38,305 nucleotides of DNA, taken from NCBI GenBank assembly GCA_002238825.1, contig MPNC01000021.1:1-38305 (forward strand), given 5' to 3'. Positions 21,887 to 38,305 of this stretch are shown here, in pieces. The DNA is from SAR202 cluster bacterium bin87 (GTDB lineage Bacteria; Chloroflexota; Dehalococcoidia; Lucifugimonadales; UBA3495). Position 1 is the stretch's first letter, and every line of letters starts with the position of its first letter. The translations under genes were made by a program, and so were the position numbers. Under the pieces are notes generated by a model, which searched no databases, was not told the DNA's origin, and saw only the letters and a list, made by a program, of their open reading frames with translations.

Positions 21887-21938
21887 TCACGGTTGGTTCG
21901 CACAACGCACGGTATGTCACCCACCCAGGAGGAGGCAG

Positions 21939-22355: not shown

Positions 22356-22366
22356 AGTTGCCTTGT

Positions 22367-22393
22367 TGACAAAAATGTTATCCTACCTATAAT
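22367..22393 (+). promoter_or_regulatory. Strong promoter of the methyltransferase gene
   Basis: Perfect consensus hexamers TTGACA (22367-22372) and TATAAT (22388-22393) are 15 bases apart, shorter than the ideal 17. Transcription should start near 22400, leaving a leader of only about 23 bases with GGGGGAT before the TTG start codon. Confidence 0.65.
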
Positions 22394-22418
22394 CCCCCGG
22401 GAAACCGACCGGGGGATT
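22391..22418 (+). promoter_or_regulatory. Candidate operator palindrome over the promoter start site
   Basis: A perfect 10-bp inverted repeat, AATCCCCCGG (22391-22400) and CCGGGGGATT (22409-22418), is separated by 8 bases. It covers the last three bases of the -10 and the predicted start site, the usual place for a repressor operator. The methyltransferase's own winged-helix domain or the preceding HTH protein could bind it. As RNA only the right arm would be transcribed, so a DNA role is more likely than a hairpin role. Confidence 0.5.
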
Positions 22419-22422
22419 ACTT

Positions 22423-23514: not shown

Positions 23515-23605
23515 CCAAGTTAATCATAAGGTTCCCCCGGGCCCGGGCCCGGGGAGTAACTCTTAACCAAGTTAATCATAAGGTTCCCCCGGGCCCGGGG
23601 GAACC
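23482..23605 (+). repeat. 52-bp tandem repeat with GC palindromes (2.4 copies)
   Basis: Two identical 52-base units (23482-23533 and 23534-23585) and a partial third. Each unit begins with the self-complementary run CCCCGGGCCCGGGCCCGGGG, then AT-rich DNA with a small inverted repeat TTAACcaaGTTAA. The third, shortened unit completes a perfect 24-base palindrome (23582-23605). The array lies in the gap before the small Cys-rich genes. An origin iteron, partition or recombination site are candidates. Confidence 0.9.
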
Positions 23606-23634
23606 AACGCCAAAGAAACGAATCGGAGGATACC

Positions 23635-24030
23635 GTGACCACAACGCTTAGTCAATCGGCGACAGCCTCTCCGGCAACCTGCCCCTATCACCAGGAGGCC
23701 GCGCTGGTGCGGACCACCAAGTGGCCCAGCGTCACGCGCGCGGCCCGGGCCCACGAGGACCGGGTCTACTACTGCGTCGGAGACTCCGGCGCTTGCGCCT
23801 GGGTGGCATCGGAGCTCCTGGGCGACCTTAACGACCCCGACGCCGCGCGGTTGGAACCGCTGGCGCTCCTCCGGCTCTATCGCGACCGGGTGAACCGGGC
23901 ACAGGAGCCAGCGGAGCGGAACCGGATCATCTCCTCGGGCGGCACGGACGTCACCGACAGCCCCCACCTCGCCGATTACGTCAAACGTTACGGATACCTG
24001 CCCTGGGAACAGGACCAGGAGGCACGATGA
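23635..24030 (+). CDS. Small Cys/His-containing protein of unknown function
   Basis: A 131-residue protein starting at GTG 23635 behind GGAGG. It has CPYH near residue 17 and YYCVGDSGACAW near residue 46; these Cys/His pairs could bind zinc. The rest is helical and charged (LARLEPLALLRLYRDRVNRAQEP). I recognise no family. It opens a chain of short genes that overlap by four bases or less and lead to the ParB-like gene, so it is probably translated from the same message. Confidence 0.65.
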   Translation: MTTTLSQSATASPATCPYHQEAALVRTTKWPSVTRAARAHEDRVYYCVGDSGACAWVASELLGDLNDPDAARLEPLALLRLYRDRVNRAQEPAERNRIISSGGTDVTDSPHLADYVKRYGYLPWEQDQEAR

Positions 24031-24290
24031 GTTACCCGGACGAGATCAACTACCCCCCGTGCGCGAGCTGCGGAGGGGATGTGGTGTACGACATACACAT
24101 GGAGGCCACCGACGGGGAAAGCATCGACCAGGGTTGCACATTGACGATAAAAGCCGTCTGCGGCGACTGCTCCGAGCTCCAAACGCCGACCCCCAGGATG
24201 CGACAGGACATGATGGTCATCGCGGCCAGACTAACGCCCGAGGACGCGGTGGTGGAACCAGCCGGCGCCAGCGAGACACCGACACCATGA
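24027..24290 (+). CDS. Small zinc-ribbon-like protein
   Basis: An 87-residue protein overlapping the previous stop by ATGA. CASCGG near the N-terminus and CGDC about 33 residues later form a likely zinc ribbon. The tail is Pro/Thr-rich. The function is unknown. It belongs to a set of four consecutive short Cys-rich proteins. Confidence 0.65.
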   Translation: MSYPDEINYPPCASCGGDVVYDIHMEATDGESIDQGCTLTIKAVCGDCSELQTPTPRMRQDMMVIAARLTPEDAVVEPAGASETPTP

Positions 24291-24301
24291 GGAGGTACAC
24301 C

Positions 24302-24535
24302 ATGGCACCATGCCCACGCCCCGAATGCGACGGCACGCTGGTGGTGCAAAAAATCTACGGCGGGACCGAGACCACCTGCCGCTCCTGCGGCCGCCACCCG
24401 ACGAGCCCCAAGGTGGAACATCGCGCCGCGCCGGTCCACGTCGCCGATTACACACCGCCCTGGTCCACCGGCCACGGTCGGCCGGTGGCCACCATGGGCA
24501 AGCGGAAGGCCGCCAAGATGCGAGGGAGGACCTGA
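24302..24535 (+). CDS. Small zinc-ribbon-like basic protein
   Basis: A 77-residue protein. ATG 24302 has GGAGG six bases upstream; an in-frame ATG at 24287 would overlap the previous stop by four bases and add five residues. CPRPECDG and CRSCGR make a compact zinc ribbon, and the C-terminus (MGKRKAAKMRGRT) is very basic, suggesting nucleic-acid binding. The function is not known. Confidence 0.6.
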   Translation: MAPCPRPECDGTLVVQKIYGGTETTCRSCGRHPTSPKVEHRAAPVHVADYTPPWSTGHGRPVATMGKRKAAKMRGRT

Positions 24536-24720
24536 TGGCCAAAAAACCACTCGCCCCATGCCCGTCCCGCGCTGACGGCGAACGATGCAACCCTGCCGCC
24601 ATCGGCGTGAATTACAAGGGCACGGTCTGGCGATGCGAGAAGCACTCCATCGCCTACGTGATCGGGCCCAACGGAAAGCTCTTGACCAACGACGCAAAGG
24701 ACGCTCGATATGCCGGATAA
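24535..24720 (+). CDS. Small Cys-containing protein
   Basis: A 61-residue protein whose ATG overlaps the preceding stop (TGATG). It has Cys at CPSRADGERC and a later WRCEKH, again a possible metal site. No family is recognised. The tight overlap on both sides (the next gene starts inside it) is the main evidence that it is translated. Confidence 0.55.
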   Translation: MAKKPLAPCPSRADGERCNPAAIGVNYKGTVWRCEKHSIAYVIGPNGKLLTNDAKDARYAG

Positions 24721-24826
24721 TGCACATGAGGACCTGATCAATTACATCAAAGGCCTGGTCAACGAAGATTGGGTGTCCGAAAAATGGACATCATTGACCA
24801 ACAACGCACAGGAGGTGACCCGATGA
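24710..24826 (+). CDS. Very small protein overlapping the ParB-like gene
   Basis: A 38-residue reading (MPDNAHEDLINYIKGLVNEDW...) starts inside the previous gene and ends with the ATGA that begins the ParB-like gene. It is acidic and likely helical. It is supported only by its place in the overlap chain; without it there would be a 100-base gap in an otherwise gapless run. Confidence 0.45.
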   Translation: MPDNAHEDLINYIKGLVNEDWVSEKWTSLTNNAQEVTR

Positions 24827-26835
24827 CGACGATGACAGTCCGCGAGCGCCAGCAGGTGGACCTCCGCCTGCTGGACGACAACCCCTGGCAGCCGCGCCAG
24901 GACCTGGACCCCGACGCCCTCAGCGAGCTGGCCGGGAGCATCAAACGGCTGGGCCTGATGCAGGCGCCCCTGGCGCGCCCCCACCCGGAGGTTTCCGGCC
25001 GCTACCAGATTGCCTTCGGCCACCGCCGCGTGGCCGCGTTGCGCCTGCTCCGCGCCGAAGTCGCCTGGCCGGATCACGTCGAGATCGACGTGGCCGGGAT
25101 CAGCGACGAGGATATGGCGGTGATGGCGCTGGCCGAGAACGACCGCCGGCGGGACCTGACCGATATTGAGCGGGTCCGCGCCTATCGCCGGGCGGTGGAC
25201 GAGACCGAGCTCACGCCCACGACGCTGGCCGAGCAATTGGACATCCACATCTCCACCCTATCGAATCACCTCCGCACCCTGGAGCTGCCGGCCTCCGTCC
25301 TGGAGCACGTGGAATCGGGCGCCCTCAGCCTGGGCGTGGCCCGGGAATTCCTGGCGCTCCAGGGCCCCGATTGCGTCCACGAAGACGAGATGCAGGACGT
25401 GATCCGGAAGATCGTGAACGTTGAGAACTACAACGACGGAGGGCGCGCGGACTGGCGAAGGCGCAACGTCCGCAAGATGATCAGCGAGACGGTGTCCTTC
25501 GTTGAGAACCGGTCCTTCAGGCCCATCGGGCCCAGGACCGGTCATGAGATCGGCCGCGGCAACGGCGAGCCCACATTCGACGTGGACGCCTTCAGCGCCG
25601 CCCACCCCCATCGGCTGCACACGATACCGGCCGATGACGGCGCATCGGAGAATTACCGGCTGCTCGAACGCTACGAAAAGAGCCGGGTGTGGACCTGCCA
25701 CGTCCGCGAGTGGAGCCGGTGGCAGTCCCGCGACACCAGGGAGCGGAACCGGGCCATCGAGGCGCACGGCGACGGGTCGGGCGGTAGGCCGCCCGAAAAG
25801 AAGGACACCTCCAACGTTCGCCTCCTGGAGCAACTCCTGGGCAAGGACCCGGTGTGGACCCGCATCGCGGCCGCCCGCCCCCAGCCCGGGCCCGACCGCC
25901 CCGTCACCGACGAGGAAAAGGAGCTGCTGGGCACCAGGGCCACCTTCCATCAGGTCGGGTACGACTCCGCCCTCTTTTACAAAATCCTGAACAAGGGCGA
26001 CCGCACCGAGGTCCACAGGTGGGAGGACGATAACGGCGGATTTGTGCCGCCCTTCTTCGACCTGGAGGAATGCCAGGATTGCGTCATCGGCGCCGCCTAC
26101 GGGGGCTCCCAGCACGGTTACCCCATGCACAAGCCCGCCCTGGCCTGTTTCAATCGCGAGCACTACCAGGAGAAACTGGCGGCCGCCAGCGCCGAGTACC
26201 GGGCCAAGCTGGACTCCCAGATCACCGGCGCCGAGCGCCAGGACATGCGGACGGTGCGTGCGCTGGTCCGGACCCTGGACGCCCTGCCCGATGACGCGCG
26301 CCGGGCGCTGGCGCTGGCCATGATCACGGCCCGGGGCATTTTCGAGTGGGAGCACCCCTTCGTGCGCGGCTCCGAATGGAGTTATGAGCCGGGGACGGTG
26401 GCCCGGATCCGCGAGATTCTGGGCGACCGGGTGGCCGGCCGGTGGGACGGCTCGAAGCGCAGCGGCCTGCAGAACAACCGGGCCGCCGCGACCGTCCTGG
26501 ACGATGTGGACCCGCAGGACCTGCGGGAGCTGATCGGGCTGCTGGCCACCTACCACCTCCGCCAGGCCGGCCAGGTCGATCTGGACTTTTCCCGGGAAAA
26601 GTCGCAAGGTGCGTCGGAGCCGGAACCGCCGGCGCCCACCGGGGATGACTCCGGCGCGGAGACCAGGCGCTGCACGGCCTGCAACCGGGACAAGCCCATC
26701 GCGGACTTCGGACGCCAGCTCCGGAAGGGTCCGGACGGCGAATATTACGACGTGCGCTGGATGTGCAAGGCTTGCACCGCCGAACGGCAGAAGCAACGCC
26801 GACAGAACCAGACCCCGATAGGAGCGGCATCATGA
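24823..26835 (+). CDS. Large ParB-like protein with zinc-ribbon C-terminus
   Basis: A 670-residue protein starting at ATG 24823 after an ideal AGGAGGTGA. Residues about 12-110 are the ParB/Sulfiredoxin domain; FGHRRVAALRLL (65-76) is the counterpart of the GERR box that binds CTP in ParB. A helix-turn-helix follows (TLAEQLDIHISTLSNHLRTLELP, about 134-156). The rest, about 500 residues, is unlike chromosomal ParB. It has a Cys/His cluster (C417xxC420, C442) and a terminal zinc ribbon (C617xxC620, C648xxC651). ParB proteins bind palindromic parS sites and spread; the gene contains a parS-like palindrome at 26584. No ParA ATPase is in the window, so silencing, regulation or partition with a host ParA are all open. 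Confidence 0.85.
   Translation: MTTMTVRERQQVDLRLLDDNPWQPRQDLDPDALSELAGSIKRLGLMQAPLARPHPEVSGRYQIAFGHRRVAALRLLRAEVAWPDHVEIDVAGISDEDMAVMALAENDRRRDLTDIERVRAYRRAVDETELTPTTLAEQLDIHISTLSNHLRTLELPASVLEHVESGALSLGVAREFLALQGPDCVHEDEMQDVIRKIVNVENYNDGGRADWRRRNVRKMISETVSFVENRSFRPIGPRTGHEIGRGNGEPTFDVDAFSAAHPHRLHTIPADDGASENYRLLERYEKSRVWTCHVREWSRWQSRDTRERNRAIEAHGDGSGGRPPEKKDTSNVRLLEQLLGKDPVWTRIAAARPQPGPDRPVTDEEKELLGTRATFHQVGYDSALFYKILNKGDRTEVHRWEDDNGGFVPPFFDLEECQDCVIGAAYGGSQHGYPMHKPALACFNREHYQEKLAAASAEYRAKLDSQITGAERQDMRTVRALVRTLDALPDDARRALALAMITARGIFEWEHPFVRGSEWSYEPGTVARIREILGDRVAGRWDGSKRSGLQNNRAAATVLDDVDPQDLRELIGLLATYHLRQAGQVDLDFSREKSQGASEPEPPAPTGDDSGAETRRCTACNRDKPIADFGRQLRKGPDGEYYDVRWMCKACTAERQKQRRQNQTPIGAAS
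26584..26603. promoter_or_regulatory. parS-like palindrome, copy 1 (inside the ParB-like gene)
   Basis: The perfect 20-base palindrome GACTTTTCCCGGGAAAAGTC. Its centre TTTCCCGGGAAA matches the chromosomal parS core TTTCACGTGAAA at 10 of 12 positions, the differences being symmetric. An identical copy lies at 31653-31672. A parS inside or next to its own parB gene is common. Confidence 0.55.
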
Positions 26836-27050
26836 CGACACCAGCCCCAGAACCCACCGGCGAAACCCACCTGGCCCGCCTGCAGGAGATGATCGAGGTC
26901 CAGGAGTCGCTACCCTGGGAGGACAGCGACGTGGACCGCCACGACCGCAGCATGAGCCTGGGCCTGCTCCACGGGTTGGCGGGTCTCCAGATGATATTGG
27001 GCGAACTCTGCGACGCGCTGGTTGCCCTGGACCCCGACGAGGAGGAGTGA
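26832..27050 (+). CDS. Small acidic protein
   Basis: A 72-residue acidic protein (MTTPAPEPTGETHLARLQEMIEVQ...DPDEEE) whose ATG overlaps the ParB-like stop by four bases. It looks all-helical. No family is recognised. The tail ends in EEE and supplies the GGAGG ribosome site of the next gene. Confidence 0.6.
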   Translation: MTTPAPEPTGETHLARLQEMIEVQESLPWEDSDVDRHDRSMSLGLLHGLAGLQMILGELCDALVALDPDEEE

Positions 27051-27289
27051 TGTTCGTCGGACCCGAGACCAGAGCCCTCCACACCCCCGAAGGCAGCTGG
27101 GAGAGGATCGATCCGGAGGCCTTCTCGGTCCAGGGATGCGGCCACATGGCCGACCCGCACCTCGGCGCCTACCGCTGGATGCGCCAGACCCGTCGACGGA
27201 CCAGGACCCTGGCCTCCGTGATCTGCGCGGCCTGCATGGATCTGGAGCTGCAGCGCCAGGCCGTGGCCGCCCGTAACCTTGGAGATTGA
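27050..27289 (+). CDS. Small protein with possible zinc site
   Basis: A 79-residue protein starting at ATG 27050 (overlapping TGATG). It contains CGH and, about 30 residues later, CAAC, which may form a zinc-binding site, with a basic stretch RQTRRRTR between. The function is unknown. Confidence 0.55.
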   Translation: MFVGPETRALHTPEGSWERIDPEAFSVQGCGHMADPHLGAYRWMRQTRRRTRTLASVICAACMDLELQRQAVAARNLGD

Positions 27290-27291
27290 TC

Positions 27292-27666
27292 ATGCAATAC
27301 ACAGTGCACGTCTTCTGCGGGGAGTTTGACCTTTTTTGCATCGAGCTGAACGATATGGTGATTGTGAATTGGGCTGAGTTGATGACCTCGGACAACCGCC
27401 ACCACGTACCGACCTGCGAGGCTATGCCCTTCATAGTCCCAGCGTGGCAGCACGCGATACTCTCATGGAGATCAGGGCCGAATGGTTGGGCGCCGCCGCC
27501 TGACGAAGACGATTTCCAAGCCATTCACGATGCGCTGTGCTCCCATACCGGCGCTCTACACGTTATCGAAACGCGGTACTGGCCGCCGTTTATAGGAGAC
27601 CCTAACTTGCCGCACCCTACGCGAGTCACAAAGGAGCCAGAAGCCCACACAGTGGATGGAAAATGA
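27292..27666 (+). CDS. Hypothetical protein of lower GC content
   Basis: A 124-residue protein from ATG 27292, seven bases after GGAG. It is rich in Trp, His and aromatic residues (VNWAELM, PAWQHAILSWRSG, RYWPPFIGDP). No family is recognised. Its GC content and codon use are visibly lower than those of its neighbours, suggesting a separate origin within the element. Confidence 0.55.
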   Translation: MQYTVHVFCGEFDLFCIELNDMVIVNWAELMTSDNRHHVPTCEAMPFIVPAWQHAILSWRSGPNGWAPPPDEDDFQAIHDALCSHTGALHVIETRYWPPFIGDPNLPHPTRVTKEPEAHTVDGK

Positions 27667-28166
27667 CCATGACGACATATCGCAAATTGATCACGGGAAT
27701 AGCGGCGGTGGCGCTGCTGGCGGCGTTTGCCGCGACGGTGACGCATCCGGCAAGCGGTGACGGATTGACCCGTATCGCGCAGCAGGTGGACCACCGGTCA
27801 TCAGGCGCCACCGGATCGGGGCAGACCAGGGTGCTGGCGCTCTACGAATTCGGGGATGACATGGAGAGCCGCGAGGGCATGTTGCAGGCGTGGCTGGACG
27901 CGGTTCGCTCCAACGGGACGGCGCTGGCGATGCATGGCCAGAGCGAGGCGGACCGGAACCAGGCCATCGAAAATCTGGTGGTGTTCGCCGACGGGTTCGG
28001 CCAGCTGGCGGACCACTACCGGGAGGCGGACCCGCAGCGCAGCGCCGAAATGGACCGCATTGCGCGGTCTCTGGACAGCCAGGCGATGGCGGCTAAACAG
28101 CGGTGGGGATTGAGCGGCACGGGGACGGGTGTAGCCGGCTCCGCGGGATACTTCGGACGTGAGTGA
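27663..28166 (+). CDS. Secreted small protein with signal peptide
   Basis: A 167-residue protein overlapping the previous stop by four bases. Its N-terminus has a basic YRK followed by LITGIAAVALLAAFAATVTHPASG, a typical Sec signal peptide cleaved near residue 30. The mature part is helical, acidic and Gln-rich and has no Cys. It is the first exported protein of the element and may be a structural or periplasmic component; the family is not recognised. Confidence 0.6.
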   Translation: MTMTTYRKLITGIAAVALLAAFAATVTHPASGDGLTRIAQQVDHRSSGATGSGQTRVLALYEFGDDMESREGMLQAWLDAVRSNGTALAMHGQSEADRNQAIENLVVFADGFGQLADHYREADPQRSAEMDRIARSLDSQAMAAKQRWGLSGTGTGVAGSAGYFGRE

Positions 28167-28212
28167 GCCCGACCCTGCCTACCAACTCGAAGCACACCAT
28201 GAGGAGTCAACC

Positions 28213-28872
28213 ATGAACCAACCCATCACCATGATGCGACCCACGCGCATCCTCGCCTTCTGCCCGGGCCACGTCTGCAACGGCGCGCACCCCGGCGCCG
28301 GGCCCAACTACGACGCCGGCGAACCGGACCCGCTGCCGGAGGCGCCGGGCTACACCCTGACCGAGGTCACCGAGCGCCAGGCCTGGGAGCTGGAGCAGGC
28401 CGCCGACGCGCTGGCCCGAGCCGCCGAACGCCACGAGGTGGACCTCCGGATCGCCGAGGGCCCGGTGTACAGCTCGATGGGTCTGCCCAACGTCGTCTAC
28501 CAGGGAAATCGCAGCGCCGCCTTTGAGCGGGGCAAAAGCCGGGTGGTCCGCCTGGCCCGGGACGCCTGCGCCCTGCGCCGCCGGTTTTGCCCGGGCCGCC
28601 ACGGCGAGGACGACCTGCGCCGCCACCTGCGGGAGGTGAAACGGGCCGGGGGACATGGCCTGGAGGCCGCGGCCCAGGCCATTGCAACCATCCTCCGGGA
28701 GACCGCCCGGGAAATCCGGTACGAGGTGGGCTGCAACGCCTGCAGCGATGAATACGGGCCACCGACCCCCCACAACCCGCTGGACGGCGTCCACACCGCG
28801 CTCGGCATGGTGCGGGTGTCCTCCCGACAGATCGCGGAGTTTGACGTGGACCGCTGGTATGAGGACGACTAG
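28213..28872 (+). CDS. Hypothetical helical protein
   Basis: A 219-residue protein. ATG 28213 follows GAGGAG by six bases; a GTG at 28159 would add 18 residues and is less likely. It has CPGHVCNGAHPG near the start and CNACSDEYGPPTP near the end, and a long helical, Arg-rich middle (LARDACALRRRFCPGRHGEDDLRRHLREVKRAGG). No family is recognised. It is the last gene before the promoter of the spike-like gene. Confidence 0.6.
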   Translation: MNQPITMMRPTRILAFCPGHVCNGAHPGAGPNYDAGEPDPLPEAPGYTLTEVTERQAWELEQAADALARAAERHEVDLRIAEGPVYSSMGLPNVVYQGNRSAAFERGKSRVVRLARDACALRRRFCPGRHGEDDLRRHLREVKRAGGHGLEAAAQAIATILRETAREIRYEVGCNACSDEYGPPTPHNPLDGVHTALGMVRVSSRQIAEFDVDRWYEDD

Positions 28873-28879
28873 CCCCGTG

Positions 28880-28908
28880 TTGACGCGGCTCGTCGACTGG
28901 CTTATGTT
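28880..28908 (+). promoter_or_regulatory. Promoter of the spike-like gene
   Basis: TTGACG (28880-28885) and TATGTT (28903-28908) are 17 bases apart. Transcription would begin near 28915, almost at the ATG (28918), so the message may be leaderless or use the next ATG at 28933. A similar unit (TGGACT, 17 bases, TATGTT followed by GC) lies at 32112-32140. Confidence 0.55.
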
Positions 28909-28917
28909 GCCGCTGGC

Positions 28918-31626
28918 ATGAGCTCCCCGGGCATGATCCACCGGACCCGAGGCCGCGCCTTCCGCGCGGCCTCGCTCGTGGTCGCCCTGGCGGGTGTCCT
29001 GGCCGCCGTGGTCGCCCTGGCCCTGGTCGAGGCCCAGGGACAGGCCGGCGACGTGCTGCTCTACCTGGCGCCCAACGGGTCCAACCAGCCCCTGCACCTG
29101 GTGGACCCCGAGACCGGCTCCGATACCGAGGTGGGCGGCCGAAACGGCACCACCTACGGGATGGCGCAGGTGGGCGCGCGGATCATCTTCGCCCAACAGG
29201 GCGATTCCCGGTTCCTGGTGCTGAACCGCTCCAACGGCTCCCAGGCCTACGCGGGCCGCGGCCACAACCTGCCCAACGGCGCCGCGGCGGTCCTCCACAA
29301 CGGCGAGCTCCTGGTGTTCGCCTCGTCCGGCCTGCTCTTCAATGCGCACGACCCCGACACCCTGATCCGGCCGTCCACCGGCGGCCTGCGGACGCTGTCC
29401 GGCGGCATCGGCGCCGTCCGCGGCGCCCTGTCCTACCAGGGCGAGCTCCGGCTCCTCGACGTGTCGGGCAATACCTGGACGGTCGACGCGGCCAGCGGAC
29501 AGGCCACGATGGTGGCGCATATTGACGGCAGCCCGGTGGGCCTGGCCGAGGTGGGCGGGCGCATCCTCACCACCGACAGCAACGTCCTCTACGAAATCGA
29601 CTGGCCCACCGGCGCGCGGACGCGGGTGGGCCCCACCAGCAACACCATCCACGGAGAGGGCGCGCTTCTGGCCTACCGGGTGCCGGCGCCGCCCGTCCAG
29701 GTGGACATCGACGGGGTGACCGCCACCGCCGACAGCGTGCGCGTCGAGTGGAGGCCCCAGCCCACGGAGCGGACCGCCACCGGCTACGACGTGCGGTACC
29801 GCATCTCCGGCGCCGCATCCTGGACCGAGCTGGTGGCGGACCCGGACGGCGGCGCGCAGTCGGTGACCATCGACGGCCTGCAGGCGGGGCGCTTTTACGA
29901 GGTGGAGGTGCGCGCCTACAACGGCGACGGCGCCGGGCCCTGGAGCGTTGGCGCCGTGGCCTACACCACCGGCGCGCTGCCCACGACCTACGGCGGCCAG
30001 TGGACCATCACCGAGCCCGCCTTCGAGGACGGGGTGATCGAGGTGACCGCCCTGGCCCGGTACGCCTTCGGCGTCTCGACGACCACGGCCTGGTTGCCCT
30101 TGGGACGCGCCCCCGCCATCTCCATCGGGCCCGCGGCCGCCACCGTGTACGACTGTCGCCCCAACCGGATCATGCGCGTGGGCTCCGGCGGCAGCACGCC
30201 GTTCTCCTTCCTGGCGGACTCCGCCTCCCCCGGCGCCACCTTCTCCCTCTGCGAGCCGGGGACCTTCGAGTTCGCGGTGGCGCCGCTATCGGGTTCCACG
30301 CCGAACCTGGCGCAAGCCCGTCTGATCACCATCGAGTCGGTCCCCTCGATCATGCGCCTGGAGCCCCATCCGGGGGACGCCGACAATCCGGTCCGGGCGC
30401 CCGGGACCTACACCTACACCATCCGCGTGGACGCGCCGCTGCAGCCCGGGCTGGCGGCCGGCGGCGGCGTGATGTACCAGTACCAGCTCAACGCCCGGGG
30501 AGCCAGCGGCGAATACGCTCCGGAGAACCTGCCCTGCCCGCCCACGCCGCAGCCGACCCGGACGCTGCTGCCCACGCCGGGCCTGCCGACCCTGACGCCG
30601 CGACCGACCCAGACCCCGGTGATCCGCTCGGGCCTGGCGCCGGACCGCGGCGTGCTCCGGATCCGGGCCTGCCGGGCCGGTGACGGGTTCATCGGGTTCG
30701 CGGCGCCGGGCGATCATGCCCGCCAGCTGCCGCAGTGGGCCGGCTGGGTCAGCGCCTACGTGCATCGCATCCACGGGTCCGAGGAGGAGATACCCACGCG
30801 CATCCCGCTGGCCACGTCGACCCGCCGTCCGCTGCCCACGCCCACGCTGCGGGCCCTGGACCCGCCGCCGGAATTCACCCCGCAACGCCCCGTGATCACG
30901 CTGATCCAGATTGGGGCGCAGGACCCGCCCGAATACCCCGGACACCGGCAGGTGCGGGTGGAATGGCGCGGCGAGACCATCGACCAGCGCGGCGACACCG
31001 AGGCCGAGGTCCTGGGCGCGCAGTACTATGAGGTCTACCGGGACGGGCAGCTGATCTCGGACGGCGAGAGCCCGCCGCGGCAGACGTTCTTCACCTGGAC
31101 CGAGCCCCGGGGCGGTCCGCCCCGGGAGATCACGGTCCGCGGCGTGGCGGACGGACCGGCGGTGATCGAGCTCACCACCCGGGTGGTCACGATACCCGCC
31201 GGCGAGACCCGGTACAGCCGCACGTCGGTGCCCTACCGCCTGAACATGCCCGCGGCCGACGCCGTGAGCGGCGGCTCCGGAGAGTGGCCCACCATGGAGC
31301 CCACGGACGGCTCCGAGGACTTTCGCCGGGCCGTCAACAACATCGCCACCGCCATGGGCGGCGACGAGGTGGACCCGGACGGCGACGGGCTCTGGGGCAT
31401 GTGGCTCTTCCTGTGCCTCCTGGCCGCCACCATCACCAGCGCCCTCTACTTCGCCATGACCAAGAACCTCTCCATAGCCGCCTTCATGTTCGCGCTGATC
31501 TTCGGCCCCATGTGGGGCATCGGCGGCGTCACCCTGGCCGGCATAGGCTACGGCTACGCGGTGATCCCGCCGCTGCTCATCTTCGCCGTGGGCGGAGCGG
31601 TGGCCGTCGTCCGCCGGTTCCGATAG
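28918..31626 (+). CDS. Large secreted, membrane-anchored protein with FN3 domains (spike-like)
   Basis: A 902-residue protein. An N-terminal signal or anchor (AASLVVALAGVLAAVVALALVEAQ, about 18-41) leads to a propeller-like beta region (45-255) with strands of the form GxLLVFASSGLLFNAHDPDTL. A fibronectin type III domain follows (about 257-348, with VEWRPQP and GLQAGRFYEVEVRAYNGDGAGPWS). Then come beta-rich segments, two Thr/Pro linkers (about 542-569 and 626-656), a second FN3-like region, a DPDGDG turn near 819, and three membrane helices (about 826-899). The large ectodomain plus C-terminal membrane anchor resembles a viral attachment spike or a surface adhesin. The start could also be ATG 28933. 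Confidence 0.75.
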   Translation: MSSPGMIHRTRGRAFRAASLVVALAGVLAAVVALALVEAQGQAGDVLLYLAPNGSNQPLHLVDPETGSDTEVGGRNGTTYGMAQVGARIIFAQQGDSRFLVLNRSNGSQAYAGRGHNLPNGAAAVLHNGELLVFASSGLLFNAHDPDTLIRPSTGGLRTLSGGIGAVRGALSYQGELRLLDVSGNTWTVDAASGQATMVAHIDGSPVGLAEVGGRILTTDSNVLYEIDWPTGARTRVGPTSNTIHGEGALLAYRVPAPPVQVDIDGVTATADSVRVEWRPQPTERTATGYDVRYRISGAASWTELVADPDGGAQSVTIDGLQAGRFYEVEVRAYNGDGAGPWSVGAVAYTTGALPTTYGGQWTITEPAFEDGVIEVTALARYAFGVSTTTAWLPLGRAPAISIGPAAATVYDCRPNRIMRVGSGGSTPFSFLADSASPGATFSLCEPGTFEFAVAPLSGSTPNLAQARLITIESVPSIMRLEPHPGDADNPVRAPGTYTYTIRVDAPLQPGLAAGGGVMYQYQLNARGASGEYAPENLPCPPTPQPTRTLLPTPGLPTLTPRPTQTPVIRSGLAPDRGVLRIRACRAGDGFIGFAAPGDHARQLPQWAGWVSAYVHRIHGSEEEIPTRIPLATSTRRPLPTPTLRALDPPPEFTPQRPVITLIQIGAQDPPEYPGHRQVRVEWRGETIDQRGDTEAEVLGAQYYEVYRDGQLISDGESPPRQTFFTWTEPRGGPPREITVRGVADGPAVIELTTRVVTIPAGETRYSRTSVPYRLNMPAADAVSGGSGEWPTMEPTDGSEDFRRAVNNIATAMGGDEVDPDGDGLWGMWLFLCLLAATITSALYFAMTKNLSIAAFMFALIFGPMWGIGGVTLAGIGYGYAVIPPLLIFAVGGAVAVVRRFR

Positions 31627-31655
31627 TGTGAGCTCCGACTAGTGTGAGCCCCGAC
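31624..31655 (+). repeat. 16-bp direct repeat pair beside the second parS-like site
   Basis: TAGTGTGAGCTCCGAC (31624-31639) and TAGTGTGAGCCCCGAC (31640-31655) are adjacent and differ at one base. The first contains the stop codon of the spike-like gene and the second runs into the palindrome at 31653. Confidence 0.8.
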
Positions 31656-31672
31656 TTTTCCCGGGAAAAGTC
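31653..31672. promoter_or_regulatory. parS-like palindrome, copy 2 (intergenic)
   Basis: This is identical over 20 bases to the palindrome at 26584-26603. It lies between the spike-like gene and the next membrane-protein gene, directly after the 16-bp direct repeats. The two copies are 5 kb apart on the element. Confidence 0.55.
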
Positions 31673-31699
31673 CACCGCGCACCCCGATAAGGACCCGCC

Positions 31700-32107
31700 A
31701 TGTTTGCCATCGTGATCTCCGGAGGCGCCCTGGTCTTCTGGCTCTTCGCCCACGCCATCATGGGGATGGCCTACTCCGGCTGGGGCCCCATCTTTGGCAT
31801 TGAGTCGCCCACCTGCGAGCACGTGCCCCAGGCCATCTGCGCCCACGACACGCCGTGGGCCCACCTCCGGGGCGGTGAGCAGACCTATGATCCGGAGTCG
31901 GGCAACCTGATGGTGCTGACCCAGGCCACCAGCGAGGGCCGCAACGTGTTTGTGACGGTGTGGAAGTTTCTGAGCATGGACTACCCCCTCCTGGACAACC
32001 AGATCGGGGCCATCGTGCGGGTGGGCGCGCTGCTGGCGGTCTTCGGGGCCATCGCCCAGCTGGTCTACCTGGTCATACGCATCGTCGGCGCCAGCCGCTG
32101 GCTCTGA
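31700..32107 (+). CDS. Small membrane protein with two helices
   Basis: A 135-residue protein, ATG 31700 with AAGGA upstream. Helix one is at residues about 3-24 (FAIVISGGALVFWLFAHAIMGMAY) and helix two at about 103-127 (IGAIVRVGALLAVFGAIAQLVYLVI). Between them is a loop of about 75 residues with a Cys pair (CEHVPQAIC) that could form a disulfide outside the cell. No family is recognised. It sits between the spike-like gene and the next promoter. Confidence 0.65.
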   Translation: MFAIVISGGALVFWLFAHAIMGMAYSGWGPIFGIESPTCEHVPQAICAHDTPWAHLRGGEQTYDPESGNLMVLTQATSEGRNVFVTVWKFLSMDYPLLDNQIGAIVRVGALLAVFGAIAQLVYLVIRIVGASRWL

Positions 32108-32111
32108 CCGC

Positions 32112-32140
32112 TGGACTTGCCCGCCGCCCTCGGCTATGTT
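32112..32140 (+). promoter_or_regulatory. Candidate promoter upstream of the second membrane-protein block
   Basis: TGGACT (32112-32117), a 17-base spacer and TATGTT (32135-32140), followed by GC as at 28903. The -35 match is modest. It would give a leader of about 150 bases for the gene at 32295. Confidence 0.4.
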
Positions 32141-32145
32141 GCGTC

Positions 32146-32208
32146 GCGCGAGGGATACCGGGCCAGGAGGCGTGAATCCCCGGGGTGTGTGTGTGCAGGC
32201 CCTCGCGC
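32146..32208 (+). promoter_or_regulatory. Long-range stem in a leader region
   Basis: GCGCGAGGG (32146-32154) can pair with CCCTCGCGC (32200-32208), a 9-bp stem beginning at the predicted transcription start. It encloses AGGAGG and a CCCCGGGG palindrome. No U-tract follows, so it is not a simple terminator. The remaining leader to 32294 is A/C-rich and holds no gene. Confidence 0.4.
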
Positions 32209-32294
32209 ACATACTATTAACGTACAACTAACCCCTTCAAAGACGAAAAACCCCCCAGCCCCCAGCCGCCGACCGACCAGGAACCAGGAACCCG

Positions 32295-32846
32295 ATGCCT
32301 TCCCTGATCAGACCCGCCCAGCGCGACGACTCCGAGAGGTCGGAGGGGAACAACCTCCTGATCGCGGTGGACAACTCCGGCGACATCATCCGCGACGTTT
32401 CCATCAAGCCGCGGTTCGGGATGTTGTTCTCCCCGAAGAACGACTGGCTCCTCGAGATGCGCGAAGCCCTGATGCGGTGGACCTATAAGAACCCCGAGCA
32501 CGGGCCGCGCCCCGACGGCCGCGCGTACTTCGCCCCCCAGGAGGAGCGCAGCCCCGCCGACATACCGTGGTTCATGGGCAGGTACCTGGACCTGGTGCGC
32601 CTGGACGCCCAGGCCGGACGGATCACCCAGCGCCTCAAGCAGCGGGTCAAGCAGGACTTCGCCTGGATCATCGGCATCGGAGCCGCCTCGCTGATTGCCT
32701 TCTCCACTTTGGTGGTCGCCCCCTACTGCGCGCCCAGTGCCGACATCACGATCCAGCAGGTGGTCCAGCCCACGCCGGATCCGCGGGCGCCGACGCCGGC
32801 CATTGTGCCCTCGCCGGTGCCGGCCCAGCCGCCGGAGACGCCATGA
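32295..32846 (+). CDS. Single-pass membrane protein with Pro-rich tail
   Basis: A 183-residue protein, AGGA five bases before the ATG. About 120 soluble residues are followed by one helix (IIGIGAASLIAFSTLVVAPYC, about 125-145) and a Pro/Thr-rich tail (PTPDPRAPTPAIVPSPVPAQPP). The basic KQRVKQ before the helix predicts that the N-terminus is cytoplasmic and the tail outside. No family is recognised. Its stop overlaps the next ATG. Confidence 0.65.
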   Translation: MPSLIRPAQRDDSERSEGNNLLIAVDNSGDIIRDVSIKPRFGMLFSPKNDWLLEMREALMRWTYKNPEHGPRPDGRAYFAPQEERSPADIPWFMGRYLDLVRLDAQAGRITQRLKQRVKQDFAWIIGIGAASLIAFSTLVVAPYCAPSADITIQQVVQPTPDPRAPTPAIVPSPVPAQPPETP

Positions 32847-33961
32847 CGACCGCCCCCGCCAACCTTCAGTCCAACCGGAAGCGGCCGCCGTGGATCAACT
32901 GGCGGCTCTTCACGCCGGCCGGGGTGGGCCTGGGCCTGGTCTATTTCGGGTACATCCTGCAGGTGAAGGGCGTGGCGGAGGACCTCGTCGCCCAGGGCGT
33001 GGTCATGTGGGCCGTGATGGGCGCCCTGCTGGGATACGTCGGCTATTGGGTGGCGGTCCTGGCCCACGTGGTGGTCGAGGCCCAGCGCAACCGGGTCAAG
33101 GTGGAATTCGAGACCACCGACGAGCTCGAGGCCTGGGCCAAGGAGCAGCCCCTCCTGCCGAAGTACTTCGGGCTCTCCCTCCACTGCGGCGTGGCGCAGC
33201 CGCACATCTGCCACGCCATGTACGACCAGCTGGCGCGCCTCGAGGAGATCGTGGTCCAGGGACCGACCATAGCGATGTTCCTGATGAGCGTGGCCGGAAT
33301 CGCCTGCGGCGTGGGCGCCGGTTTCTGGGCCTACTCCAGCCCCCTGGAGCCGCACTGGGCGGTGATCCCGATCCTGGCCATCGTGTGCGCACCGGTGGGG
33401 TTCGGGTTCGGATGGACCACGGCGGCCTCGATGAAATACGCCCGGGCCTGGTGCTATACCCTGGTGCTGATCTATGGCCACGGGTACAGCGAGCGCCCGA
33501 CGGACATCATCGAGACCCTGACCCCGCAGGTGGTCTGGGCCAACCGGCCCTGGTACTTCCAGGGCTCGGCCATCGAGGGCATGAAGGGCCGGTGGGTCCT
33601 CCTGCGTACGGACCAGGTGCAGTCCGAGGCCCTGGTGGACTACACCATGCGCAACATCTACGAGCTCGAGGCGGCGTCCATCTCCGACCTGATGAGCGGC
33701 CTGCAGTCGTATGACGACCAGCCGCCGCGCGGTTGGACCGGCTCCAACGCCCGCGAAATGCGCCTGATGGACAAGAAGGCGCAGCGCAAGGGCGAGCTCG
33801 AGGGAGTCCGCCAGCGCAAGGTGGGCGGCCAGACCGCCCGGGCCGTTTCCTACACCATGATCATTGTGGCCATGCTCGGCGCCAGCATGTGCAGCTCCAT
33901 GAACGGTTTCGAGAAGCCCACCGAGATCGTGGACCAGAACATCGGGCGCATCCTGGACTGA
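32843..33961 (+). CDS. Polytopic membrane protein of unknown family
   Basis: A 372-residue protein starting in the ATGA overlap at 32843. Five helices are predicted: about 23-40, 52-77 and 143-163 (with GIACGVGAG), then 172-194 and 334-350. A basic, charged cytoplasmic-type segment (residues about 295-330, KKAQRKGELEGVRQRK) precedes the last helix. It is the most hydrophobic component of the block. A role as an assembly platform or virion membrane protein is possible, but nothing in the sequence identifies it. Confidence 0.65.
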   Translation: MTTAPANLQSNRKRPPWINWRLFTPAGVGLGLVYFGYILQVKGVAEDLVAQGVVMWAVMGALLGYVGYWVAVLAHVVVEAQRNRVKVEFETTDELEAWAKEQPLLPKYFGLSLHCGVAQPHICHAMYDQLARLEEIVVQGPTIAMFLMSVAGIACGVGAGFWAYSSPLEPHWAVIPILAIVCAPVGFGFGWTTAASMKYARAWCYTLVLIYGHGYSERPTDIIETLTPQVVWANRPWYFQGSAIEGMKGRWVLLRTDQVQSEALVDYTMRNIYELEAASISDLMSGLQSYDDQPPRGWTGSNAREMRLMDKKAQRKGELEGVRQRKVGGQTARAVSYTMIIVAMLGASMCSSMNGFEKPTEIVDQNIGRILD

Positions 33962-33965
33962 CGCG

Positions 33966-34160
33966 ATGCGGGACCGACTGACGCAGGCCGTGCGGGACGG
34001 CACGTCATGGACGCAGCTCCGGATCTCCGCGGTGGCCTGGGCCTGCGCGCACCTGGTGATCAGCGCCTACCCCTACCCGTGGGGCCTCGCCGGCGTGGCG
34101 GTGTACATCAGCGTCTTCTTCGCTCTCGAATACGCCGACCGAACAACGAACCGTAGGTGA
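33966..34160 (+). CDS. Small membrane protein
   Basis: A 64-residue protein five bases after the previous gene. Most of it is hydrophobic: two short helices (about 19-35 and 39-54) between a charged start (MRDRLTQAVRDG) and end (EYADRTTNRR). Its size and position between larger membrane proteins recall minor coat proteins of filamentous phages, which is only an analogy. Confidence 0.6.
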   Translation: MRDRLTQAVRDGTSWTQLRISAVAWACAHLVISAYPYPWGLAGVAVYISVFFALEYADRTTNRR

Positions 34161-34165
34161 CCGCC

Positions 34166-34978
34166 ATGACGTCGCAGACTTTCTCAGAACAGGACGCCTG
34201 GTATCAGGAGATGCCCGGCCAGCAGGAGCGGGGCAGCCACGCCGAGTGGTACGGCATGCTCTACGCCTTCACCTCAATGGTGATGGACATCCCCACCGGC
34301 GCCGCCGTCCGGACCAACCTGACCGACGACGAAAAGGAGGAGGCGGAGATCTGCATGAGCCTGGGAATGAAGCAGTACCGCGCGCGCTGTTTCAACTCCG
34401 GCCTGGAGATCGGCCGCCGCCGCCAGGAACAGAAGCTGCTCCAGGAGGCGATGAAGGAGTGGGAGGAGCTGGATGACGACGGCGAGCACAAGGCATTCAT
34501 CCCGCCGACCATCTTCGAACTGGATTCGGACCAGAAGCAGTACGCCACGGTCTTCGCCGGCATGGGCTGCATCACCTCGGACGAGGAGTATGACAAGGCC
34601 CAGGCGCGCTATAACCGCCTCTCCGAGCAGTGCCAGCGCATCCAGGAGCAGGACGAGCTGGCCAAGCAGATGGATTGCTACTTTGACTTCAGCCTGCTCC
34701 GGCAGACCTATCACCAGCCCGACCGCGAACGCCAATTCAACGGCCTGAAGTACGACGAGGCGCCCTCATTCCTGCAGGAGCTCTACAACCTGGTCATCAT
34801 CACCTTCTCCGGCCAGCAGCAGGAGCACGAAACCGAGCTGGTGATCCGCCAGCAGCCCATGCGCCGGATGCTGCCCCCGGGAGAGGTCGTCGACGAACCG
34901 GTGACGCGGCGCCGGCCGCGCGGCGGCAAGAAGGGCGCCGAGAGCGAGGTCTACGGCGGCGACACCTACGAATTCTAG
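34166..34978 (+). CDS. Soluble helical protein of unknown function
   Basis: A 270-residue protein. ATG 34166 follows AGGTGA by five bases; a GTG at 34157 overlaps the previous stop. It is acidic, rich in Gln and Glu, and strongly helical with coiled-coil-like stretches (NRLSEQCQRIQEQDELAKQM). The C-terminus is basic (RRRPRGGKKG) and ends with a short acidic tail. It has no membrane segment. It may be a cytoplasmic partner of the ATPase encoded two genes later. Confidence 0.6.
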   Translation: MTSQTFSEQDAWYQEMPGQQERGSHAEWYGMLYAFTSMVMDIPTGAAVRTNLTDDEKEEAEICMSLGMKQYRARCFNSGLEIGRRRQEQKLLQEAMKEWEELDDDGEHKAFIPPTIFELDSDQKQYATVFAGMGCITSDEEYDKAQARYNRLSEQCQRIQEQDELAKQMDCYFDFSLLRQTYHQPDRERQFNGLKYDEAPSFLQELYNLVIITFSGQQQEHETELVIRQQPMRRMLPPGEVVDEPVTRRRPRGGKKGAESEVYGGDTYEF

Positions 34979-34996
34979 CCAGGAGGATAGCCACCG

Positions 34997-35710
34997 ATGG
35001 CCACCCAAGCAGACGACCCCCAGCCGGAGGCCACCGGCGACGATAAGGCGACCGGCCTGGCCGCGAGCCTGAAGGCGATCCCGCCCTCGCGCCTCCTGTT
35101 CTACGGCGCGATTGTGGCGGCCGGCCTCCTGGTGTCCATGGGCCTCTGCGCACTGCCCGGGCAGGCCCAGAAGTTCCAGCCCCCGCCGCCGGTGACCCAG
35201 GTGGTCGTGACCGAGGTGGCGCCGACCACCACCGTTCTGCCCACGTGGACGCCGGTCCCCACCGCGACCCCGCCCCCGCTGGTCGACCTCCCCCTGCAGC
35301 AGCGCGCCTACCAGGAGTACCGCATCTATCACCTGCTCTACGAATACCGAGCGTGCTACCGGCACCACACCCAGCCTCCGCCCACGCCGGTCCCCACGCC
35401 CACCGCCGGTCCGACGCCCGAATACACGGGACACAACCCCCAGGAGCCGTGGCGGGACGATCCGCGCTTTGCCCACCTGGAGCCGACCCCCCACCCCACC
35501 CCGACGCCGATCCCGGGCGCCCTGGTCCAGCACCTCCCGCCGCCCTACGGCCTCAGCGACCGGGAGGTGGACGATCACGCCCTGGGAGATTTGAGCGGCG
35601 CCACCCGCTGGCTGATCGAGCGCTACTCCCGGGGCGACTGCGTGGAGTCGACCCATTACGCCGCCTTCGAAGGCCGGACCGTGTTCTTGAGCAAATACGC
35701 CACCCGGTAG
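34997..35710 (+). CDS. Single-pass membrane protein with TP-rich linkers
   Basis: A 237-residue protein with AGGAGG upstream. After 30 soluble residues one helix (LLFYGAIVAAGLLVSMGLCAL, about 33-53) leads to an outside region with Thr/Pro linkers (PTWTPVPTATPPP, PPPTPVPTPTAGPTP, EPTPHPTPTPIPG) spacing a small folded end. Such TP linkers are frequent in Chloroflexota surface proteins and match those in the 902-residue protein, tying both to the same host surface. Confidence 0.65.
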   Translation: MATQADDPQPEATGDDKATGLAASLKAIPPSRLLFYGAIVAAGLLVSMGLCALPGQAQKFQPPPPVTQVVVTEVAPTTTVLPTWTPVPTATPPPLVDLPLQQRAYQEYRIYHLLYEYRACYRHHTQPPPTPVPTPTAGPTPEYTGHNPQEPWRDDPRFAHLEPTPHPTPTPIPGALVQHLPPPYGLSDREVDDHALGDLSGATRWLIERYSRGDCVESTHYAAFEGRTVFLSKYATR

Positions 35711-35719
35711 GAGCCGCCC

Positions 35720-36994
35720 ATGGTCAAGATGAAACGGGTGATGCCGACAGTGCTCGACGAGATGGAGCAGTTCGCCGAGGACCGCATCGCCCTGGAGTAC
35801 CGGCGCAAGATACTCCTCGAGGACAACTACCTGTACGAGCTGAACAAGGAGGCCGCGCTGGAGCAGCCCCTGGGCCACGATATGACGTTCGTGGCCGGAC
35901 GCGTCGGGGTGGGCAAGACCACCGACGCCATCATGCGGGCGCGGCTCGCGTTTCGCGCCGGCTACATGGTCTATCACAACGGGATCGGCTGCCTCTTCGG
36001 GATGGAGGTGCCCGACCTGGGCATCTACGCGTTCTCGCACTCCATCCGCCGGCGCGCGCATATCGTCATCGACGAGGCCCACAACTTCTGCCCAAGCCGC
36101 CGCTCCAACACCATCCGGAGCCAGACGTTTCTCAACGGGCTCAGCGGCCGCAGGAAAAACGATCACCGGTTGGACTTAATGAGCTCCCAGCCCCGCCAGA
36201 TGGACTTTTCCGTCATGGAGCAGGTGATGTGGGCCAGGGTCCCCGAGGAGCTGAGCAAGTGGGCCAGGAAGAAAAGCGCCTACGGCGAATGGTGCTATCG
36301 GAAGATCAACGTCCTGGGACCCTACCCCTGGCGGGACAAGAATATGTTCGAACAGTGGGGCATCTCGTACTACGAGCGCGACGTGGAACACCGGGAGTTC
36401 ACGGCCCTGCCCAGCCAGTGGTACGACGCCGCGGCCGCCGTCAACTCGTGGGCGAACATCAAGAAGCTCGCCGGCAAGGGCGTGGGCTCCGAGCAGATGT
36501 GGGAATACCTGGACAGCGCCGACACCGACGAGGAGCTGATCGTCGACGAATACGGCAACGAGGTGGTGGGGATGGCCGAGGACGGGACCTTCATCGTGCG
36601 GGGTCCGGAGGGACAGCAGTCGTCGGCACGGACCGCCGAAGAACGCGCGGCCCAGGATGCCCAGGTCGAATACGAGAACACCATCCTGACCTATATCCTG
36701 ATGGCATTCCGGCCGGTCATCGACGAAACCGGCGTCGAGCGCCCGCCTGCCCTGAACCCCGACCCGCAGGAAAAGATACCGGTGGCCAAGATCGCCCGGG
36801 TGATCCGCGACCACGGCGCCCCCGCCTGCACCGAGAGCCGCCTGCGCAAGATGCTGACCTCCTACGACGTGCGGGTCAGGGGCCGCGATGAGACCGTGAT
36901 CGTGGAGGACATCGCCCGGGTCTACGCCGCCTATGGCGCCTGGCCCTACCCCTTCGGCGACTACACTCCCCGTCCCCCACGCCCTCCAGGGTGA
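35720..36994 (+). CDS. Zot/FtsK-HerA-like P-loop ATPase
   Basis: A 424-residue ATPase. Walker A is GRVGVGKT (residues 60-67) and Walker B HIVIDEAH (114-121). A later strand LDLMSSQPRQMD (151-162) carries the conserved Gln (157) of FtsK-HerA-type motors. The order, with SGRRKNDHRLDLMSSQ, parallels Zot/gene I proteins (RHxGxDIxLITQ), which drive assembly and export of filamentous phages, and also virion-packaging ATPases. Unlike classic Zot it has no membrane helix; instead a long C-terminal part ends in a winged-helix-like region (about 360-412) and a Pro-rich tail. It is the last gene before a strong terminator. A conjugative coupling protein is less likely, as no relaxase is seen. Confidence 0.75.
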   Translation: MVKMKRVMPTVLDEMEQFAEDRIALEYRRKILLEDNYLYELNKEAALEQPLGHDMTFVAGRVGVGKTTDAIMRARLAFRAGYMVYHNGIGCLFGMEVPDLGIYAFSHSIRRRAHIVIDEAHNFCPSRRSNTIRSQTFLNGLSGRRKNDHRLDLMSSQPRQMDFSVMEQVMWARVPEELSKWARKKSAYGEWCYRKINVLGPYPWRDKNMFEQWGISYYERDVEHREFTALPSQWYDAAAAVNSWANIKKLAGKGVGSEQMWEYLDSADTDEELIVDEYGNEVVGMAEDGTFIVRGPEGQQSSARTAEERAAQDAQVEYENTILTYILMAFRPVIDETGVERPPALNPDPQEKIPVAKIARVIRDHGAPACTESRLRKMLTSYDVRVRGRDETVIVEDIARVYAAYGAWPYPFGDYTPRPPRPPG

Positions 36995-37116
36995 TCCGGA
37001 CCGGAATCGGCCAAAAACCGGCCGCAAATAAGCCACGGAGAGGCCCGAAAGTCGAGCCGACCGACCCGCAGGCCCTTTTACGCCTGAAATCGCAGCAGCC
37101 CCGCCCCTGACAATCC
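36995..37116. other. Untranslated gap after the ATPase gene
   Basis: No gene is seen. A small inverted repeat CGGCC-AAAAAC-CGGCCG lies near 37008-37024. The strong terminator follows immediately. Confidence 0.5.
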
Positions 37117-37156
37117 AGCGGCCGCCTCCTGAACCAGGGAGGCGGCCGCTTTTTGT
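37117..37156 (+). terminator. Strong rho-independent terminator
   Basis: A GC-rich stem of about 15 bp (37117-37131 with 37135-37150, one bulged C) is followed by TTTTTG. It ends the transcript that covers the membrane proteins and the ATPase and separates it from the repeated membrane-protein genes. Confidence 0.85.
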
Positions 37157-37277
37157 GGTGATGGCGGTGATGGGCGTGATGGAATCGTTGACTGCATAGA
37201 CCCTCCGCGCAAGTGTGGCGGAAAGGCGCTTGGAGCAGCGCCGATCAACTCACGCACGACCCGCAAGGAGGCGACCC

Positions 37278-38108
37278 ATGAAATACGGACTGGCCCTGGC
37301 GTTCGGGGCCATATCGCTCATCATCAGCATCGCGCTGTCGGACACGGTGACCGACGGCGCCCAGGACCTGGACGTGGAGTTCAGGAACGCCGGCGTCGTC
37401 GACGGCCAGCGGTTCGACAAGGTGTGGACCAAGGCCAAGACCGACGGCGACGGCCGCAACCAGGACCGAGGGAAGCCAGTGAAGGTGGAAGCGGTCGGAG
37501 ACAACGTCTGCGCCACGGTCGCCGAAACGACGCTCTACCTTTTCGACGGCACGCAGGTCACGGCCGAACGCGACCAGAAACCGTCCAGCGGCGCCGACGT
37601 GAACAACTGCGGCACACTGCCGGCGTCGGCAGGCTTTGGGACGAAAGCCCAGATAACCAACGCCACCTGGTCGAAGGCGAGCCCGCTGGCCAACGAGATC
37701 GGCGGGATATTGACGCTGCTCACGTCGGTCCTGCCCATCGTGATCCTGGGCGGCCTGGTCATCATGGCCACCACGACGGCATTCAGCCAAGCCAACATGG
37801 GAGCGGGATCATTGGGCAAGCAGCTCCTCGTCGAGTTGGGCTATATCGTCGGGGTTTTGATCATCATGCGCATGGCGCCCTCGATCACCCAGGAGGCGAC
37901 CGACCTCTACTGGACGTTCTCCAGCGGCGCGACCATTTTCAACATCTTTGGCGGGTTCCTGGGCATCCTGATCGCGCTGATACCGGTGGGCATCATCGGG
38001 TTAATTTTCGGGATCGTGGCCGAGCGCAGCATCAAAAACGTCAGTGGCCAGAGTGGCATCGGCTACGCCTACAAGAAGGTCCGCGGCAGCATGAGCGGCG
38101 GCATGTAG
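37278..38108 (+). CDS. Four-helix membrane protein, first copy of a repeated gene
   Basis: A 276-residue protein; ATG 37278 follows AAGGAGG by six bases. The N-terminus MKYGLALAFGAISLIISIAL is a signal or anchor. Residues about 22-140 form an ectodomain with two cysteines (C78, C111). Three helices follow (about 143-168, 186-204, 224-248), and a basic, Gly-rich C-terminal end. It has its own transcript after the terminator and its start is repeated 914 bases later, as expected for an abundant structural component; this is an inference. A TTGACT at 37188 may be its -35, with a poor -10. Confidence 0.7.
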   Translation: MKYGLALAFGAISLIISIALSDTVTDGAQDLDVEFRNAGVVDGQRFDKVWTKAKTDGDGRNQDRGKPVKVEAVGDNVCATVAETTLYLFDGTQVTAERDQKPSSGADVNNCGTLPASAGFGTKAQITNATWSKASPLANEIGGILTLLTSVLPIVILGGLVIMATTTAFSQANMGAGSLGKQLLVELGYIVGVLIIMRMAPSITQEATDLYWTFSSGATIFNIFGGFLGILIALIPVGIIGLIFGIVAERSIKNVSGQSGIGYAYKKVRGSMSGGM

Positions 38109-38178
38109 CCAGCCCGCACCGCTTTGTTTGAGGGAGGCGCCGCGCTCCAGGCGCCTCCCCTAGACCAGCCCCATCGCA

Positions 38179-38305
38179 AAGGAGGCGACCCATGAAATAC
38201 GGACTGGCCCTGGCGTTCGGGGCCATATCGCTCATCATCAGCATCGCGCTGTCGGACACGGTGACCGACGGCGCCCAGGACCTGGACGTGGAGTTCAGGA
38301 ACGCC
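38179..38305 (+). repeat. 127-bp exact repeat of 37265-37391 reaching the window end
   Basis: From AAGGAGGCGACCC through the first 38 codons, these 127 bases are identical to 37265-37391, and the identity begins exactly at 38179. The preceding bases differ. The offset is 914 bases. Confidence 0.9.
38192..38305 (+). CDS. Second copy of the four-helix membrane protein gene, truncated by the window end
   Basis: The ATG at 38192 and 38 codons are present, identical to the start of the gene at 37278, with the same AAGGAGG site. The gene leaves the window, so it cannot be said whether it stays identical or diverges. See the note on the 127-bp repeat: it could be a true tandem gene or an assembly loop. 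Confidence 0.55.
   Translation, partial: MKYGLALAFGAISLIISIALSDTVTDGAQDLDVEFRNA

Follow-up and report, generated by a model that had tools for sequence, protein, structure and literature searches.

Why does this contig stop in a sequence that it has already contained once, and what does the stop say about the DNA that was sampled? The window analyzed here, a stretch of 38,305 bp, covers contig C10 from end to end, and its last base is a true contig end; the genome comprises 67 contigs and 4.96 Mb. The final 127 bp are 100% identical to a stretch that begins 914 bp earlier (Table 1), and this pair, the longest repeat of the whole window, is far beyond what chance would produce. The 127-mer has no further occurrence in the 4.96-Mb genome, and the region from 37100 to 38305 has no other long match anywhere in it. 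An earlier reading of the sequence alone had claimed a 127-base identity after which the sequence stops, and this is borne out. The base preceding the repeat is C at 37264 and A at 38178, and the left edge is therefore genuine; it coincides with the Shine-Dalgarno sequence AAGGAGG of a gene that encodes a membrane protein of 276 aa. On the right, only the contig end delimits the repeat, and the biological repeat is at least 127 bp long. A circular contig was ruled out, as the repeat ties the contig end to an internal position and not to the contig start.

Table 1. Features of the window and of the linked contig C28, with the evidence for each.
Feature	Position	Strand	Evidence or remark
Left dif-like attachment site GGTTCGCACAACGCACGGTATGT	21895..21917	+	23 bp; synteny with relatives stops there
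Element, left 16.4 kb	21918..38305	+	Right 11.3 kb = C28:1-11302
N6/N4 DNA methylase, C-terminal winged helix	22423..23514	+	Pfam PF01555, E 7e-32
ParB-type partition protein, C-terminal endonuclease VII-like stretch	24769..26835	+	PF02195, PF17762; TIGR00180 over cut-off; phrog_4715
Perfect 20-bp palindrome GACTTTTCCCGGGAAAAGTC, copy 1	26584..26603	.	Sequence search
902-aa surface protein: signal, FN3 domain, C-terminal hydrophobic helices	28918..31626	+	Pfam fn3, E 1.2e-13; hydropathy
Palindrome GACTTTTCCCGGGAAAAGTC, copy 2	31653..31672	.	Sequence search
P-loop ATPase, distant similarity to Zot / pI	35720..36994	+	phrog_197 'Zot-like', E 1e-7; Pfam Zot, E 0.004, below cut-off
Strong intrinsic terminator after ATPase gene	37117..37150	+	14-bp stem and T-run; z -4.8
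914-bp repeat unit: RBS, gene and intergenic hairpin	37265..38178	+	Copy spacing, sequence
Repeat copy 1: Shine-Dalgarno, start codon, signal/TM segment	37265..37391	+	Repeat search, 100% identity
276-aa membrane-protein gene	37278..38108	+	ORF, hydropathy
Hairpin between copy 1 stop codon and copy 2 RBS, no T-run	38126..38165	+	RNA fold of 38106-38200: -36.3 kcal/mol, z -2.5
Repeat copy 2: last 127 bases of C10, one assembler k-mer	38179..38305	+	Repeat search; k = 127
Second gene copy, first 38 codons, cut by contig end	38192..38305	+	Own-genome protein search, 100% over residues 1-38
Palindrome GACTTTTCCCGGGAAAAGTC, copy 3	C28:7966-7985		Full length on C28

The length of the repeat is explained by the other contigs of the same assembly. 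When the terminal 600 bases on either side were compared across almost all of the genome's 67 contigs, 32 pairs of contig ends were found to share exactly 127 bp, with the next commonest length represented by five pairs, indicating that the assembler worked at k = 127. All but five of the 32 pairs (27/32) are flush with the outer ends on both sides, and some contig ends lie inside other contigs (C56 in C27; C53 and C2 in C45). Because k is 127, the repeat length of 127 bp carries no information on the length of the biological repeat. The end of C10 is the same event as the other 127-bp ends, with C10 itself as the partner, and the break is an ordinary de Bruijn graph node. Published simulations of metaSPAdes and MEGAHIT give contig ends of maximum k-mer length (maxK) at repeats and variants (PMC10914622). 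Likewise, the end of C10 is a k-long sequence that recurs at a graph branch, with k = 127 in this case, but unlike the maxK overlaps of that study its partner is its own interior, making the node a loop. Together, the 32 exact end pairs and these simulations support well the earlier proposal that the contig stopped at a repeated assembler k-mer. No exit contig leaving the C10 repeat was found in the bin, where such contigs are absent for nearly all nodes (one 'opp' 127-bp pair). At many contig ends, two almost identical strain variants meet at a 127-mer. Since most of the 127-bp pairs resemble strain variants that share a word, the bin is a mixture of strains, and some of its size may reflect sequence duplicated among such variants.

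We modeled the break in a toy de Bruijn graph built from the real C10 sequence. A single gene copy gave no break, whereas a contig end in this very 127-mer appeared under two or three full copies, and the same node formed when the second copy shared 127 or 300 bp with the first (models B127 and B300) or when a single copy was accompanied by an excised circle. Given that only the single copy is left unbroken and every repeat model breaks, a real repeat in the sample is implied, as the sequence-only reading had held. Contigs alone fit a tandem array, a paralogue that shares the start and an excised 914-bp circle alike; the junction 38178/38179 is present in the reads, and the contig is silent on how copy 2 continues. 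An assembly or library chimera at this junction, with no biological repeat behind it, would agree with the repeat being displayed by only one contig. However, the left edge of the 127-mer is clean and lies exactly at the ribosome-binding site (RBS), whereas chimeras fall randomly and are rare in depth, and the remaining 127-bp ends in the bin resemble ordinary branch nodes, leaving a chimera extremely improbable.

Two paralogues might instead share the RBS and the first part of the gene, at least 38 codons, and then diverge, as at a variable-protein or cassette locus with gene conversion of the 5' end. Models B127 and B300 show that the contig data fit such paralogues equally well, and the onset of the repeat at the RBS would be a natural edge for a gene-by-gene layout. 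However, the identity extends to the third positions of all 38 codons, a protein search of the own genome found no diverged paralogue elsewhere, and in the sole and distant relative, G020, the gene is single and no array was seen; we therefore consider start-sharing paralogues unlikely. The 'cassette-like arrangement' that had been suggested for the locus is without support, and its integron version fails: the sole GTTRRRY lies inside the gene at offset 570, with none at the unit junction (attC). Alternatively, the chromosome could hold one copy, with either an excised circle of 914 bp or a duplication-bearing strain variant as the source of the junction reads. The graph would be the same as for a tandem duplication, and strain variants are common in the bin, but the junction has no recognizable recombination site, the integron GTTRRRY included. 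We know of no excised element of this kind, and rate the single chromosomal copy as very improbable.

Because the 38 codons are unchanged at every position, we favor a recent tandem duplication. A de Bruijn assembler at k = 127 would have re-entered a node already used and ended C10 there, and reads in the sample would join the end of the gene unit to a second Shine-Dalgarno sequence and gene start, with identity over 127 bp or more. The membrane-protein gene was most likely duplicated in tandem in recent times to give two or more 914-bp units of full or nearly full length, where we infer both the full length of copy 2 and the copy number. An RBS of its own precedes the gene start in copy 2, which sits after a hairpin. 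Beyond it, the DNA would continue across a gap in the assembly to contig C28, and the duplicated gene could serve to raise the amount of an envelope or virion protein. The missing exit contig, the single gene of G020 and, for the element, the GC skew of G016 speak against this explanation. As the bin contains strain variants, the repeat may occur in part of the population only. Taken as a whole, a k-mer break at a tandem duplication within an element inserted at dif is an explanation in which we place considerable confidence. The repeat should be regarded as an ordinary short-read break and not as a discovered array; its practical use is to flag a gap in a mobile element, the two halves of which can now be placed at dif.

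By hydropathy, the product of the repeated gene has an N-terminal transmembrane (TM) or signal segment (residues 1-25) and three C-terminal hydrophobic helices (residues 137-252), separated by an extracytoplasmic stretch of ∼110 residues with two cysteines. Profile searches placed the 276-aa protein in no family above cut-off, and AlphaFold models from the element (pLDDT 37 and 32) were too poor for a fold search. A single relative turned up, in G020, a genome from the same bacterial family; identity is 28% over residues 118-275 (158 residues), and its gene lies ∼30 kb away from one that is related to the upstream ATPase gene. The region concerned (G020:C2 712-765 kb, another genus) holds the related membrane protein, cadherin/FN3 surface proteins, giant proteins and the related ATPase, and no dif-like site was found in the stretch examined at up to 4 mismatches. 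Neither the 276-aa protein, nor the ATPase, nor a 372-aa membrane protein has relatives in IMG/VR, from which the exact start of the repeated gene is also absent; the 276-aa protein matched no plasmid and the ATPase matched nothing in phage records. Across 400 genomes of the phylum, the 276-aa protein and the ATPase were found in their own genome only. A match within the class, in G355 (E 1e-4), was taken as chance, being located beside or in a gene for an ABC-transporter substrate-binding protein. Judging from the strong terminator between the two, the repeated gene looks like a transcription unit separate from the ATPase gene.

The element that carries the gene was delimited by comparison with relatives. 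In 13 relatives of the genus, the DNA match to the window reaches 21917 at most and then ends, and C28 from 11303 onwards matches what immediately follows the single dif in the complete relative G016. The missing flank is thus accounted for, and an insertion extends from 21918, past the window's end at the repeat, to C28:11302, forming an integrated element of at least 27.7 kb across C10 and C28. A second dif-like site occupies C28:11280-11302 at the right end of the insertion, and both ends carry GGTTCGCACAACGCACG(G/T)TATGT. Each of 30 relatives has a single site of this type, whose arms hardly vary whereas its 6-bp center does, and a reversed control gave 0. Against E. coli dif, 8-9 of 11 and 6 of 6 arm positions fit. 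A sample of 799,080 other positions in G016 contained no equally good fit; GC skew sampled along this genome revealed no evident terminus at the dif site. The chromosome copies of the host bacterium are separated at dif. Judged by its insertion site, the element would be Xer-exploiting (IMEX-like), in a SAR202-like Dehalococcoidia genome, and it probably entered the chromosomal dif by means of the host XerC/XerD, whose use we infer. No recombinase was recognized among 18 element proteins scanned with Pfam, a set that excludes small ORFs and the gap, and 20 IMG/VR contigs with dif-like sites share no genes with the element except a methylase fragment. For one gene of the window, the closest relatives with a name are in Dehalococcoidia MAGs, including SAR202 bins and bins labelled RHO, APA and IRC; going by the labels, several of these presumably come from sponges.

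The repeated gene is one among the membrane and surface protein genes of this element. Palindrome GACTTTTCCCGGGAAAAGTC occurs, as far as searched, only within the element, and is a candidate parS for the ParB-type protein or a candidate operator; because copies are present on both the C10 and C28 pieces, it provides a second link between them. A gap separates the pieces, since C28 starts inside the open frame of a giant protein, the 5' end of which lies in the gap. This protein (C28 88-6456; at least 2122 aa) has no cysteine, internal repeats, a Nudix domain and a stretch of PGEV repeats. DNA methylases of different classes lie near the two element ends, N6/N4 on the left (22423-23514) and D12 on the right (C28 9859-11247), and the 3' end of the former gene contains a 52-bp tandem repeat in 2.3 identical copies (23482-23599), which includes GC-rich CCCGGGCCCGGGCCCGGGG. 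The ATPase has Walker A (GRVGVGKTT) and Walker B (HIVIDEAH) motifs and no TM segment by hydropathy, and among matches to the Zot model in relatives only one resembles it, weakly.

Whichever reading of the repeat is adopted, the element could be an inovirus, a filamentous phage, in which the repeated gene would encode a coat or adsorption protein. Like the pI-Zot ATPases of Inoviridae (PMC6813254), the P-loop ATPase matches the Zot-like phage family phrog_197; insertion at dif is as in filamentous phages, and the surface protein has a C-terminal membrane anchor. Unlike in Inoviridae, however, the ATPase lacks the C-terminal TM segment by which pI/Zot ATPases are recognized, and its Zot score falls below the Pfam cut-off. 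The element is also large, at least 27.7 kb against 7.3 kb for the dif-inserted XacF1, and at 276 aa the repeated protein far exceeds the size range of 30-90 aa by which inovirus coats are predicted. No small major coat protein (30-90 aa, 1-2 TMD) was recognized outside the gap, a 64-aa ORF at 33966 having no TM segment by hydropathy, and no coat or capsid was recognized among the scanned element proteins. We consider an inovirus rather unlikely. With the dif-integrated, non-tailed double-jelly-roll phages NO16/Asemoviridae (PMC9966536) the element shares dif-like sites, a packaging-type ATPase and membrane proteins, but no double-jelly-roll capsid family was matched among the scanned proteins, and its size exceeds 10 kb. 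A broader proposal, which we hold to be distinctly unlikely, is that SAR202-type Chloroflexota harbor undescribed dif-integrating viruses or transferable elements, whose genes would encode a giant Nudix protein and a distant Zot-like ATPase and would include tandem membrane-protein gene copies of constant start and variable remainder.

There are parallels with Xer-exploiting elements (PMC5357621), as the element is inserted at the chromosomal dif with dif-like sites on both flanks. At its left site the XerC arm and center equal dif and the XerD arm differs, recalling TLC-phi (PMC5357621), which likewise departs from dif in the XerD arm on one side. In contrast to the known members, its host belongs to Chloroflexota, which the review of Xer elements does not mention (PMC5357621), and the only gene content in common is the distant Zot-like ATPase. 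At 27.7 kb or more, it falls in size between the dif-inserted phages and a 57-kb island. If confirmed, it would extend these Xer/dif-inserted systems to uncultured Chloroflexota, and its gene content would be unusual among them.
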